Below are positions 17,162 through 33,800 of a DNA stretch of 64,000 nucleotides, piece after piece (the stretch's first letter is position 1; each line of letters starts with the position of its first letter). Below the pieces are notes generated by a model that searched no databases, was not told the DNA's origin, and was given only the letters and a program-made list of their open reading frames with translations. Source of the stretch: Erinaceus europaeus (taxonomy: Eukaryota > Chordata > Mammalia > Eulipotyphla > Erinaceidae). The position numbers were made by a program, and so were the translations under genes. The stretch covers positions 65,357,254-65,421,253 of the forward strand of contig NC_080168.1 of NCBI RefSeq assembly GCF_950295315.1, read 5' to 3'.

Positions 17162-17167
17162 CCCTCC

Positions 17168-17497
17168 TGTTGTATGCTTTACATTGGTTTGTTCTAGCTC
17201 TCCCCCGCCAAGAGAATTGGATCAGTCCTGTTAGTTTCGCGGGCCTGCTTGGCCCCGCCCCTAGGAACCCCGACAGAGTTCCAGAGTGGCAGAGTTAGAG
17301 AGGGTGCTTGGCGCTGCTGTGGGGGAAAGAGGCAGCAGAGTTCTGTTTGGTGATTAGTTTGGTTTAGTTTATGAATCGTTGTTCCTGAATAAAGAAATAC
17401 AGCTTCCTTGCCCAGCCGTATGTCTCTGGTCGGTCGTCTCTGTTACCCGCCCGTGAAGCTAGCCCGGCCAGCTGGAGCCTCCGAAATTTTAACAACA
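17168..17497 (+). mobile_element. Solo ERV LTR (class II-like), 330 bp
   Basis: It begins TGTTGTATGC and ends TTTTAACAACA, so it has TG...CA ends with the short inverted repeat TGTTG/CAACA. AATAAAG at about 17390 is the polyadenylation signal. A perfect 6-bp target duplication CCCTCC (17162-17167 and 17498-17503) points to a class II (betaretrovirus-like) integrase. There is no internal sequence, so it arose by LTR-LTR recombination. It is related to the LTRs at 23243 and 52020 (shared TTAGTTTCG, CCAGCCGTGTGTC-like and AACAACA blocks). Confidence 0.92.
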
Positions 17498-17976
17498 CCC
17501 TCCACCGCCACCTTGGTTACTGCTACAGAGTGACCTCAGCGGGGGACACAGTGCTCCTGGCAGGAAGGAATGTGCCTTCTCCTCCTGTCTTCTCCTGGCA
17601 GGCACAGATCTGTTGAAAGGCCGAAAGGCATTCTGGGTTTGGAGCTATACATTCTTTATTTTTAAACTTTATGTATTGGGAGGCTAACTCGGTATAGAGC
17701 ACATACATTTTTTTTATTATTTCTTTATTGAGAAATTAATGTTTTACATTCAGCAGTAAATACAACAGCTTGTACATACAGAACATTTCCCACTAGGTCC
17801 TCTGTTATCCTTCTTGGATCTGTATTCACCCCACCCACCCACCCCAGATTCTTTTACTTTGGTGCCATACGCCAATTCCAGTTCAGGTTCTACTTGTGTT
17901 TTCTCTTCTGATCTTGTTTTTTCAACTTCTGCCTGAGAATGAGATCATCCCATATTCATCCTTCTGTTCCTGACTT

Positions 17977-18618
17977 CTTCTAGCGTTTGCCCTTCTTCCG
18001 TAGCCAGTCAACAGCATCAGGTTGAGCCTGATGTAAAGTTTCAAGACCTCCTTTGAATCTGGAGAGGTGGCAGTCATTGACTATGTGGGTCATAGTCTGT
18101 CTGTAGCCGCAGGGGCAATTCGGGTCATCTCTGGCTCCCCAGCGATGGAACATAGTGGCGCACCGGCCATGGCCTGTTCGATAGCGATTGAGGAGGGCCC
18201 AATCATAATGTGCTAGGTCAAAGCCGGGTTGACGCTTGCAGGGGTCTGTGATGAGGTGTTTGTTCTTTACCTCAGCTGACTGCCAACTCTGTTTCCAAGA
18301 GACTGGAACAGAGAAGTCCAGTGTAGGCATAGGGGACCAGATTGGGTGACGAGACATCAAGCGTTGGACAGGGTGGGCGAAGATATCCGCGTATATTGGC
18401 AGGTCCAGTCGAGCGTAGACGTGGGAAATGAACTTAGATGATGCTGCATCCCAACGAATATCTGGCGGGGCGATGTTGCTAAGAACTGGCAGCCATGGAA
18501 CCGGGGTGGAACGGATGGTTCCAGAAATTATCCTCATGGAGGAATATAATTTGGAATCGACCAAGTGGACAGGGGGGCTACGGAACCATACTGGGGCACA
18601 GTATGGTTTCTGACAGTA
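17977..18618 (-). mobile_element. Non-L1 non-LTR retrotransposon fragment (Jockey/R1/RTE-like), nested in L1
   Basis: About 640 bp absent from the paralogous L1 at 30903-30930, which reads straight across the junction. TGTTCCTGACTT (17965-17976) and TGTTTCTGACTT (18619-18630) flank it, a 12-bp target duplication with one mismatch. On the minus strand it is 5' truncated and ends within a few bases of the stop codon (CGC TAG AAG), with no poly(A) tail. L1 insertions end in poly(A), so this element probably used its own or another machinery. At the 5' junction CAGTATG(G)TTTCTGA occurs twice in tandem, possible filler. Confidence 0.85.
17980..18618 (-). pseudogene. Reverse transcriptase C-terminal domain fragment, frame intact
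   Basis: The frame is open from the insertion's 5' junction to TAG at 17980-17982, about 213 codons; no ATG marks its true start, since the element is truncated. Landmarks in order: CAPVW near residue 6, LVDSKLYSSMRIISGT, WLPVLSNIAPPDIR, RYRTGHGRC near residue 145, then CPCGYRQTMTHIVNDC (C-x-C-x7-H-x4-C knuckle) and FKGGLETLHQAQPDAVDWL. From family knowledge, CAPVW/MRIISG, RTGHG and a cysteine-histidine knuckle mark the region after the reverse transcriptase core in Jockey/R1/RTE-like elements of invertebrates. L1, CR1/L2 and BovB tails look different. The polymerase core is missing, so the fragment is not itself mobile. The absence of stops suggests a recent insertion. Clade assignment is from memory of motifs. 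Confidence 0.75.
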
Positions 18619-19325
18619 TGTTTCTGACTTATTTCATTTAACATGAATTTTTCAAGGTCCATCCAAGATTGGCTGAAATCAGTGAAGTCACCATTTTTTA
18701 TAGCTGAGTAGTATTCCTTGTGTATATATACCACAGCTTTCTCAGCCACTCATCTGCTGTTGGACACCTGAGTGGATTCCAGGTTTTGGCTATTACAAAT
18801 TGTGCTGCTGAGAACATGTGTGTACACAGATCTTTTTGATAGGTGTGTTGGGTTCCTTAGGATATATCCCAGGAGAGGAATTGCAGGATCATAGGGTAGG
18901 TCCATTTCTAGCCTTCTGAGAGTTCTCCAGACTGTTCTCCACAGAGGTTGGACCAATTGACATTCCACCAGAAATCCAGGAGGGTTCCTTTCACCCCACA
19001 ACCTCTCCAGCATTTGTTGCTGTTACCTTTTCTGATGTATGACATTCTCACAGGAGTGAAGGTATCTCACTGTTGTCTTTATTTGCATTTCTCGGACAAT
19101 CAAAGACTTGTGGCATTTTTTCATGTGTCTCTCAGCCTTTTGAATCTATTCTGTCGTGAATATTCTGTCCATGTCCTCTCCCCATTTTTGGATGGTGTTA
19201 TTTGTATTCTTGTTGTTGAATTTGGTAAGCTCTTTATATATTTTTATTATTAAACTCTTGTCTGATGTATGGCCTGTAAAGATTTTCTGTCATTCTGTGA
19301 GGGGTCTCTTGTTTTGGATAGTGGT

Positions 19326-22847: not shown

Positions 22848-24316
22848 CCCCCACACCTATGGACATCTAATCTTTGATAAGGGGGCCCAAAGTATTAAAT
22901 GGAAGAAGGAGGCTCTCTTCAATAAATGGTGCTGGGAAAACTGGGTTGTAACATGCAGAAGAATGAAACTGAACCACTTTATCTCACCAGAAACAAAAAT
23001 CAACTCCAAATGGATTAAAGACCTGGAGGTTAGACCAGAAACAATCAAATACTTAGAGGAAAACATTGGTAAAACACTTTCCCACCTAAACCTCAAGGAC
23101 ATCTTTGATGAAACAAACCCAATTGCAAGGAAGACTAAAGCAGAAACAAACCAATGGGACTATATCAAATTGAAAAGCTTCTGCACAGCTAAAGAAACTA
23201 CCAAAAAAAAAAAAAAAAGAAAGAAAGAAACTATCACACAAATGTTGTATGCTTCACATTGGTTTTGGTCTCACCCCCCGCCCCGCCTCTGGGAGATTGT
23301 GGTATGGCCCCTGCTAGTTTCGTGGGCCCTCTTCTCCCCGCCCCCAGAACCCCTACAGACTTCCAGAGTTCTTGAGGCAGCCGCCAGAGGAGAAGGATGC
23401 AAGACAGATCTGTGTGGTGATTAGTTTGGGGAGTCCCTCTGTGCCGCCAGAGCAGTGGAGCAGAAAGACAGGAGAGCACATGTTTGCCCACTCGTGAATA
23501 AAGATTAAATTGCGTTCTCAGCTCAGCCGTGTGTCTCTGGTCGTCTTTGTTACCCACCTGTGAAGCCAGCCCAGTTATAACAACACACAAAGAGACACCT
23601 CACAGAATGGGAGATCTTTACATGCCATACATCAGACAGGAGACTAATCACCAAAATATACAAAGAACTCAGCAAACTTAGCACCAAGAAAGCAAATAAC
23701 CCCCATAAATGGGCAGAGGATATGAACAGAACATTCACTCCAGAGGAGATCTAAAAGGCTAACAGACATATGAAAAACTGCTCCAGGTCTCTGATTGTCA
23801 GAGAAATGCAAATAAAGACAACACTGAGATACCACCTCACTCCTGTGAGAATGGCATACATCAAAAAGGACAGCAGCAACAAATGCTAGAGAGGCTATGG
23901 GGACAGAGGAACCCTTTTGCACTGCTGGTGGGAATGTAAATTGGTCTAGCCTCTGTGGAGAGCAGTCTGGAGAACTTTCACTAGGCTAAATATGGACCTT
24001 CCATATGACCCAGTAATTCCTCTCCGGCCCCAAGGACTCCATAACACCCAACCAAAAAGATGTATGTACTCCTATGTTCATAGCAGCACAATTCATAATA
24101 GCTAAAACATGGAAGCAACCCAGGTGCCCAACAACAGATGAGTGGCTGAGAAAGCTGTGGTATATATACACAATGGAATACTATGCAGCTACTAAGAACA
24201 ATGAACTCAACTTCTCTGACCCATCTTGGTCAGAGCTAGAAGGAATTATGTTAAGTGAACTAAGTCAGAAAGATAAAGATGAGTATGGGATGATCCCACT
24301 CATCAACAGAAGTTGA
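22848..24316 (+). pseudogene. L1 ORF2 C-terminal remnant
   Basis: Conceptual pieces include '[20 protein letters not shown]', 'MKLNHFISPETKINSKWIKD' and 'VRPETIKYLEENIGK' before the LTR. 'CTAGGNVNWSSLCGEQSG' and 'WYIYTMEYYAATKNNE' follow it. These are the usual L1 ORF2 C-terminal blocks. Several in-frame stops lie beyond the LTR, so it is non-functional apart from being truncated. Confidence 0.9.
23243..23585 (+). mobile_element. Solo ERV LTR (class II-like), 343 bp
   Basis: TGTTGTATGC start and ATAACAACA end, with a perfect 6-bp target duplication CACAAA (23237-23242 and 23586-23591). The block TTTGCCCACTCGTGAATAAAG holds the poly(A) signal. It shares the GGAGAGCACATGTTTGCCC block with the right-hand LTR piece at 52645, so those two are one subfamily. 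It sits inside an L1 ORF2 and is therefore younger than that L1. Confidence 0.93.
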
Positions 24317-25542
24317 GAAAGAAGATCAGAAAGGGAAACTAAAGGCAGGATCTGACTAAATTGAAAGTAGGGCACCAAAGTAAAAACCCTGTGGTGAGCG
24401 GGAGTCCCGGTAGACATGCGGCTTCCTGGGCCGGTAGGGGGGTGTGGGTGGGGGTGGGTGGGAGGGATAGGACACAATCTTTTGGTGATGGGAATGGTGT
24501 TTATGTACATACCTATTAAATTGTAGTAATATAAATCACTATTTAATGAATAGGAGAGGGGGAAAATTGTATGTCTAACAAAGGGACTTTTCAAAGTTAA
24601 CCCAATTACCAAATAATGTGATGATAACAGTAACTATCCATTGTCTCCTTGAACCCTAAGACAGCAGGAACCTCACATTTCCACTATAGAGCCTAAACTT
24701 CCCCAGTCCTGGGATCCTAGGGTAGGGCCCACTTCCCCATATGCTTCTCCCAATTATTATCAAATAATATTGCATCCGCTGATTGCAACCTAATCAACAC
24801 AACGAGTGCCACCCCAGAATGCTTCAGACTGTGTCCAGAGACTTCAGGTGTGGAACGACAACCCATCAGCTTCATCACTCGGGTGAGACCTTTCCTTTCA
24901 TAGTATTCTCTAATTCCATCCCAGGTGGTTCACTTCCTAACAAAGTCCCAAAACCTAGATATAGACCAGGTTCCAGGAGATAGAGTATATGTTCACACGT
25001 ATCCATAAACTAGGGCAAATATATACCTGAAAGCAGTAGTACACTAGAGTTTGCAGTGAGTACCCCCCAACACTTCCTCTCCACTATTCCAACCTTTGGG
25101 TCCATGATACTTCAACAATTTGTTTGGCTTTGTATGTTAACTCTCTTTTCAGCCACCAGGTTCCAGATGCCATTAGGATGCCTGCCAGGCTTCCCTGGAC
25201 TGAAAACCCCACCAATGCATCCTGGAGCTCTGCTTCCCCAGAGACTCACCCTACTAAGGAAAGAGAGAGGCAGACTGGGAGTATGGATCGACCAGTCAAC
25301 GTCCATGTTCAGCGGGGAAGCAATTACAGAAGCCAGACCTCCCACCTTCTGCAACCCACAACGACCCTGGGTCCATGCTCCCAGAGGGATAGAGAATGGG
25401 AAAGCTATTGGGGAGGGGATGGGATATGGAGATTGGGTGGCGGGAATTGTGTGGAGTTGTACCCCCCCATCCTATGACTTAGTTAATGTCTCCTTTCTTA
25501 AATAAATAAATTAATTTTAAAAAAAGAAATCAGACATTTCTT

Positions 25543-30610: not shown

Positions 30611-30834
30611 CAGTATTAAACCTACTTTCTTTTTCCTTCCTTTATTTTTTTATGTTTTACATTTGACCGTAAAATACAATAATTTGTACATGCATAACAT
30701 TTCCCAGTTTTCCATATAACAATACAACCCCCACTAGGTCCTCTATCATTATTTTTGGAGCTGTATTCTCTCCCCCACCCCCACCCCAGAGTCTTTTACT
30801 TTGGTGCAATACGCCAGTTCCAGTTCAGGTTCTA

Positions 30835-33800
30835 CTAGTGTTTTCTCTTCTGATCTTGTTTTTCAACTTCTGATGACAGTGAGATCATCCCATATTCATC
30901 CTTCTGTTTCTGACTTATTTCACTTAACATGAATTTTTCAAGGTCCATTCAAGATCGGCTGAAAACAGTGAAGTCACTGTTTTTAATAGCTGAGTACTAT
31001 TCCATTGTGTATATATACCACAACTTGCTCAGCCACTCATCTGCTGTTGGACACCTGAGTGGCTTCTAGGCTTTGGGTACTACAAATTGTGCTGCCAAGA
31101 ACATATATGTACACAGATCTTTTTGGATGGGTGTGTTGGGTTGCTTAGGATATATCCCCAGGAGAGGAGTTGCAGGATCATAGGGTAGATCCATTTCTAG
31201 CCTTCTGAGAGTTCTCCAGACTGTTCTCCACAGAGGTTGGACCAATTGACATTCCCACCACAGTGTAGGAGGGTTCCTTTCACCCCACAACCTCTCCAGC
31301 ATTTGTTACTATTACGTTTTCTGATGTATGACATTCTCACAAGAGTGAAGTGGTATCTCATTATTGTCTTTATTTGCATTTCTCTGACAATCAAACTTGT
31401 GGCATTTTTTCATGTGTTTCTCGACCTTTTGGATCTATTCTGTGGTGAATATTCTGTCCATGTCCTCTCCGTATTTTTGGATGGGGTTATTTGTCTTCCT
31501 GTGGTTGAGTTTGTCAAGCTCTTTATATATTTTGCTTACTAAACTCTTGTCTGATGTATGGCCTGTAAAGATCTTCTCCAATTCTGTGAGGGGTCTCTTG
31601 GTTTGGATAGTGCTTTCTTTTGCTGTGCAGAAGCTTTTTAATTTGATGTAGTCCCATGGGTTATACTTGCTTTAGTCTTCTTTGTAATTGGATTCGTTTT
31701 AGTGAAGATGTCTTTAAAATTTATGCGGAAAGGAGTTCGGCCAATATTTTCCTCTAAGTATCTGATAGTTTCTGATCTAATATCCAAGTCCTTGATCCAC
31801 TTGGAATTTACTTTTGTATTTGGTGAAATACAGTGGTTCAGTTTCATTCTTCTGTATGTTTCAACCCATTTTTTCCAACAAACATTTGTTGAAGAGACTC
31901 TGCTTTCCTCATTTAATAGTCTGGGCACCTTTGTCAAAGATTAGATGTCCATAGGTATGGGGGCTTACTTCTGGGGTCTCAGTTCTATTCCACTGGTCAG
32001 TGTGTCTATTCATGTCCCAGTATCAAGCAGTTTTGATGACAATGGTCCTATAATAGAATTTGAGATCAGGGAGTATGATGTCTTCAGTTCTTCTTCTCAA
32101 GATTGTTTTGGCAATTCTAGGTCTTTTCTGATTCCAGATAAATATTTGTAGATTTGTCCTATTCTCCTAAAAAATGTAAGTGGGATCTTGATGGGGATAG
32201 CATTAAATTTGTATATGGCTCTGGGTAGTATATTCAGTTTGATGATGTTAATTCTTCCAACCCATGAACATGGAATATCTTTCCATTTCTTTGTGTGTTT
32301 TTCAATTTCCTTGAATAGTGACTCAAAATTTTCAGTATACAAGTCTTTCACTTCTTTGGTTAGGTTTATTCCTAGATATTTTATTGTTTTTGTTGCTATA
32401 GTAAAAGGAATTGATTTCTGGATTTCAACTTCTTCTAACTTATTGTTTGCATACAGGAATGCCACTGACTTTTGAATGTTAATTTTGTAGCCTGACACCT
32501 TACTGTATTGCCTGATGATATCCAAAAGCTTCTTGCTGGATTCCTTAGGTTTTTCTATGTATACTATCATGTCATCTGCAAATAGGGAGAATTTGACTTC
32601 TTCTCTTCCAATCTGTATGCCTTTAATTCCTTGCTCCTGCCTGATTGCTATGGCAAGAACTTCCAACACTATGTTGAATACTGATGGTGATAGTGTTGAA
32701 TAGTAATGGTGATAGTGGGCAGCCTGGTCTAGTACCTGATCTGAGGGGAAATGCTTCCAGTTTTTCACCATTGAGTATAATGTTGGCTGTAGGTTTGCTA
32801 TATAGAGACTCCACTATCTTCAGGAATTTTCCATCTATTCCCTTTTTTTTTTTTTTTAGTATTTTGATCATAAAGGGATGTTGTATTTTGTCAAAGGCTT
32901 TCTCTGCATCTATTGATATGACCATGTGGTTTTTGGTCTTGCTTTTATTGATGTGGTGGATCACGTTGATTGATTTACATATATTAAACCAACCTTGCAT
33001 GCCTGGGATAAACCCCACTTGGTCATGATGAACAATCTTTTGAATATACTGCTGTATCCATTTGGCTAGAATTTTGTTCAATATTTTAGCACCTATGTTC
33101 ATCAGAAATATTGGTCTTCAGTTTTCTTTTTTGGTTGTGTCCCTGTCTGCTTTTGGTATCAAAGTGATGTGGCTTCATAGAAGCTGGAAGGGAGTATTCC
33201 AGTGTCTCCAGTCTTCTGGAAGACTTAAAAGTAGAGGTATTAGCTCTTCTTTTGAAGATTTTGTAGAATTCATTTGTAAAACCATCTGGTCCAGGACTTT
33301 TATTCTTGGGAAGGATTTTAATAACTGTTTCAATTTCATTAGTTGTGATGGGCCTGTTCATGTTATCTAATTCCTCTTTACTTAATTTTGGAAGTTCGTA
33401 GATATCTAGGAAATCGTCCATTTCTTCCAGGTTCTCTAGCTTGGTGGCATATAGTTGTTCATAGAAGTCTAGCATGATATGCTGAATTTCTGCAGTGTCT
33501 GTTGTGATATCTCCTCTTTCATTTATGATCCAATTTATTTGGTTCATCTCCCTTTTTTATTTTTTGAGTCTGGCTAAAGGTTTGTTGATTTTGTTCACTC
33601 TTTCGAAGAACCAACATTTACTTTCGTTGATCTTTTGTATGCTTTTCTTATTTTCAGTGTTATTTATTTCTGCCCTAACTTTAGTTATTTCTGTCCTTCT
33701 GGTTACTTTAGGGTCCCTTTGTTCTTCTTCTTCTAGGTCTTTAAGGTGTGCAATCAGGCTGTTTATTTGTGCTTTTTCTTGTTTCCTAATGTGTGCTTGT

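Follow-up and report, generated by a model that had tools for sequence, protein, structure and literature searches.

A 5′-truncated retrotransposon copy, very probably of the Vingi type, inside an older L1 of the hedgehog Erinaceus europaeus

What interrupts an L1 element in the genome of the hedgehog Erinaceus europaeus with an open reading frame of invertebrate character, and does it represent a family that is new for mammals? We address these questions for a window of 64,000 nucleotides (the whole stretch of DNA that was analyzed, to which all positions refer). The insert is very probably a dead, 5′-truncated copy of a Vingi-type non-LTR retrotransposon, which landed in the 3′ region of an older L1 in the hedgehog lineage. 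The family is probably not new, a fitting one having already been published for hedgehogs under the name Vingi.

The host element is the 3′ part of an L1 on the minus strand (17708..19320, the upper limit being the extent that was compared), with its A-run side at the low end. It was delimited by blastn to two other L1 copies in the window and by a frame resembling ORF2. The minus-strand A-run lies at 17708–17715, and the minus-strand frame at 18750–19022 resembles what we take to be the C-terminus of L1 ORF2; together with the L1 copies in the window, these features bear out the L1 setting that had been proposed in a sequence-only reading of this DNA. One of the copies (30730..31609, minus strand) offers an empty site, as it carries the target 12-mer once, at 30905–30916, with the insert absent. 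The left flank, over its matched part, shares 88.5% identity with this copy, and the right flank 90.8%. The other copy (23590–24402) is more distant (76% and 79% to the flanks) and is likewise free of the insert.

Comparison of the junctions with the empty L1 copy places the insert at 17977..18618 (642 bp, minus strand), in the same orientation as the surrounding L1 and within its 3′ part. It is flanked by a target-site duplication of 12 bp, of which the copy on the element’s 3′ side reads TGTTCCTGACTT (17965..17976) and the one on its 5′ side TGTTTCTGACTT (18619..18630). The two agree at 11 of 12 letters, and agreement at 11 or more places occurred in 59 of 2,000,000 random 12-mer pairs from the window. 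The earlier description, namely about 640 bp interrupting an L1 with a 12-bp duplication and one mismatch, is thus confirmed and now has an empty-site copy of the L1 in the same window beside it.

In the element’s direction the insert starts with TACTGT, close to where the family motif EYCAPVW is encoded. These first letters belong to a short tandem repeat that mixes letters of the target with letters of the element (GTCAGAAACATACT followed by GTCAGAAACCATACT), so that, on our own reading, the genuine element sequence would start at about TACTGTGCC. At the 3′ end, a TAG stop is followed by three bases (AAG) and then by the target duplication, with no poly(A) tail at this junction. Neither a tail nor similarity to L1, the two features expected of an L1 copy, was therefore found: blastn of the insert against the window returned the insert alone, despite the several L1 copies present there, and thus also no further copy of the insert within the window. 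Insertion may have begun with a nick in the L1 made by the element’s own endonuclease, after which the RNA end (...AAG) could base-pair with a CTT at the nick. Reverse transcription would then halt around the YCAPVW codons, and a short tandem copy of neighboring sequence would arise as the second junction was closed.

The minus-strand frame at 17980–18633 comprises 217 codons from stop to stop. Its residues 1–5 derive from the L1 side, thus leaving 212 codons within the insert (17980..18618, minus strand, with the TAG). Frame, homology, and the ends of relatives identify these as the C-terminal part of a reverse transcriptase (RT) ORF with a C-x-C-x7-H-x4-C knuckle. An open frame of about 213 codons with this knuckle and with CAPVW, MRIISGT, WLPVLSNI, and RTGHGRC had been noticed from the letters, and all of these elements were found. 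The frame is beyond chance, as the best relative in the first protein search has E = 9.8e-70. Since 29 of the 30 aligned relatives (36–54% identical to the fragment) terminate no more than 3 residues from its end, its stop marks where the ORF naturally ends. No residue of the knuckle is missing: across the alignment with the 30 relatives, C173, H183, and C188 do not vary and C175 hardly does, and in a second alignment all four residues are nearly invariant (90% or more). At four conserved positions (residues 21, 30, 61, and 142), the fragment departs from its relatives. It codes solely for the part after the RT domain, matches no Pfam family at E <= 1, and is without function now.

Protein searches place the fragment among elements known mainly from invertebrates, as the sequence-only reading had expected. 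The first search gave 89 relatives at E <= 1e-3, three of which carry organism names: the turtle Trachemys scripta, Diaphorina citri, and Sitophilus oryzae. With the relative P0007 as query there were 1524 matches, and with an alignment as query 1324 (E <= 1e-3); in each case 7 of the 120 listed carry organism names. The name-bearing matches are arthropods, an eel, and a turtle; no mammal is among them (3 of the 89 rows of the first search and 7 of the 120 listed in each of the other two, the remaining rows being mostly metagenomic). In viral contigs no relative was confirmed with either the fragment or the metagenome protein P0126 as query, and phage records gave no match. Solved structures yielded none matching P0007 at E <= 1e-3, and with P0126 a distant match to the R2 and L1 ORF2 reverse transcriptases (best E = 4.7e-12), which does not settle the clade. 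When the fragment and 30 relatives (31 proteins) were compared with the window by tblastn, 2 of the 33 rows fell outside the insert. Both are weak matches (23–25% identity) of 32878–33225 to the RT part of two relatives, and this stretch is probably the RT part of an L1 (an ORF2 remnant).

The closest relative is P0126, a protein of 582 residues from a single metagenome contig of 2072 bp. It exceeds the length limit of the first protein search, which left it out, and is included in the P0007 and alignment searches. Its identity to the window fragment is 94% over 212 residues, with 198 of 207 positions shared from residue 11 on, and it has an RT domain; an intact near-copy of the element thus exists. 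Pfam finds RVT_1 in P0126 and no RNase H, which is also missing from all 11 other relatives scanned. The AP-like endonuclease part lies outside both the fragment and P0126. The relative P0132 does combine Exo_endo_phos_2 with RVT_1, but its match to P0131 starts only within the RT, and it may therefore be a chimaera.

Nine differences separate the window copy from P0126 in the 207 positions. At three of them (residues 21, 61, and 142), P0126 has the residue common to 27 or 28 of the 28–29 other relatives and the window copy differs; CpG decay would be compatible with two of these changes, R61W and R142H. At residues 41 and 106 the departure from the commonest residue (17 of 29 and 13 of 29, respectively) is on the side of P0126, and the remaining four differences are at variable positions. 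In a tree that took in relatives only, the window copy and P0126 pair with a support of 100/100, and the branch that carries the pair measures 0.6 changes per site. Their nearest neighbors are the metagenome proteins P0002, P0025, and P0189 (support 89/89), and an earlier tree without P0126, of the same scope, had P0002 and P0025 in this place (95/90). There is a small probability that the organism behind P0126 is not a hedgehog but, say, a parasite, and that the protein thus points to the donor of a recent transfer of this family into hedgehogs, or to a sister recipient. P0126 is worth following, because its source would turn out to be either hedgehog DNA from the host or a candidate donor.

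How old is the insertion? The insert has kept 26 CpGs, with an observed/expected ratio of 0.62; the ratio is 0.15 for the whole window and 0.08 for the L1 flanks. Part of this contrast would be explained if the master element was rich in CpG. In simulations, the chance of an intact frame was 0.43 at 1% divergence, 0.21 at 2%, 0.076 at 3%, 0.017 at 5%, and 0.001 at 9%, figures that vary with the rates chosen for the model (a sixfold weight on CpG, indels at 12% of substitutions, and 80% of indels frame-shifting). The right flank, for comparison, is at a K80 distance of 0.094 (685 sites) from the nearest L1 copy. High CpG and an open frame suggest a recent insertion, and CpG retention combined with the simulated frame decay makes it probably much younger than the L1. 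Recent activity of the family in this lineage, which had been proposed beforehand, is thus supported.

A family of this kind has a history in hedgehogs. Kojima, Kapitonov, and Jurka are said to have introduced the name Vingi in 2011 for elements expanding in hedgehogs. They reportedly placed Vingi beside Ingi as its sister, noted that it lacks RNase H, detected it in two hedgehog genomes but in none of the other mammals searched at the time, and favored horizontal transfer. To our knowledge, hedgehogs are the mammals that have Vingi, which has not been found in others searched. The insert resembles the Vingi of hedgehogs in host group, in recent activity, and in having relatives in invertebrates and reptiles. 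A further likeness is the absence of RNase H after the RT, a domain that Vingi is said to lack as well. We know of no difference between the two, which were matched by description. We use the name Vingi as a probable assignment, because host, domain make-up, age, and relatives fit. BovB, also a mammalian non-LTR element with horizontal transfer, differs in belonging to the RTE clade, and it too was set beside the insert by description.

The same holds for RTE1_Sar of the common shrew, a eulipotyphlan non-LTR element thought to be of invertebrate (nematode) origin, which belongs to the RTE clade and was not found in hedgehog reads in the study that describes it (PMC6542046). Vingi itself is reported from hedgehogs and reptiles (PMC5753468), and the available part of PMC3183009 counts hedgehog Vingi among likely horizontal transfers in mammals and gives 311 copies of Vingi-1N3_EE under 1% divergence in Erinaceus europaeus. 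Vingi elements are also reported from the locust (PMC3391268), and Anolis Vingi is given as the partner of a SINE (PMC3747384). For Atelerix albiventris, 4476 I-Jockey LINE copies are reported in a text whose available part does not use the word Vingi (PMC12026660), and PMC6036668 mentions neither hedgehog nor Erinaceus. The sequence-only reading had proposed a hedgehog non-LTR family, perhaps acquired by horizontal transfer. Its invertebrate type and recent activity stand; what it missed is that hedgehog Vingi was already published and its transfer already proposed, as the available parts of PMC5753468 and PMC3183009 indicate.

As to origin, vertical descent from early vertebrates with survival in hedgehogs, in place of horizontal transfer, is improbable but has some evidence on its side. 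Relatives are known in eel and turtle, the green anole has Vingi copies that have been counted (PMC7561263), and a single Vingi fossil of pre-amniote age is reported for human (PMC9004415). Against such descent stand the lack of mammals among the name-bearing matches listed, and nearest tree relatives that are metagenome proteins and not turtle or eel sequences, although the support for this placement is only moderate. Rather improbable is a hedgehog family distinct from the published Vingi-1, be it from another clade or a second Vingi lineage. The match to Vingi-1 by description only and the long branch of the window copy and P0126 leave some room for it, but a recently active Vingi is on record for hedgehogs (PMC5753468 and PMC3183009), and Vingi is matched in age, in host, and in the missing RNase H.

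The remaining two explanations we reject as scarcely credible. That relatives come mostly from metagenomes might hint at contamination or misassembly, but L1 bases are duplicated on both sides of the insert and the same L1 is present in the window with an empty site. The open frame would suit a host gene that has been domesticated, or a copy that L1 made of a cellular gene or transcript, but both are contradicted by the junctions, which show no poly(A) tail and a 5′ truncation inside an RT ORF, and by the departures at four conserved residues.

As a Vingi-type insertion, this single copy adds little to the published hedgehog family. It is, on the other hand, a clean example of a tailless, 5′-truncated insertion for which the window also holds a copy of the empty site.

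Other repeats accompany it. A 22-base motif of the hedgehog tRNA-type SINE has 9 matches with 4 or fewer mismatches in the window and none in 20 shuffled windows, which agrees with a hedgehog host, short of formally identifying the species. A stretch of 330 bp at 17168–17497 resembles a solo LTR (TGTTGT...ACAACA, with an AATAAA signal), is flanked by a perfect 6-bp direct repeat, CCCTCC (17162–17167 and 17498–17503), and would fit a class II endogenous retrovirus.
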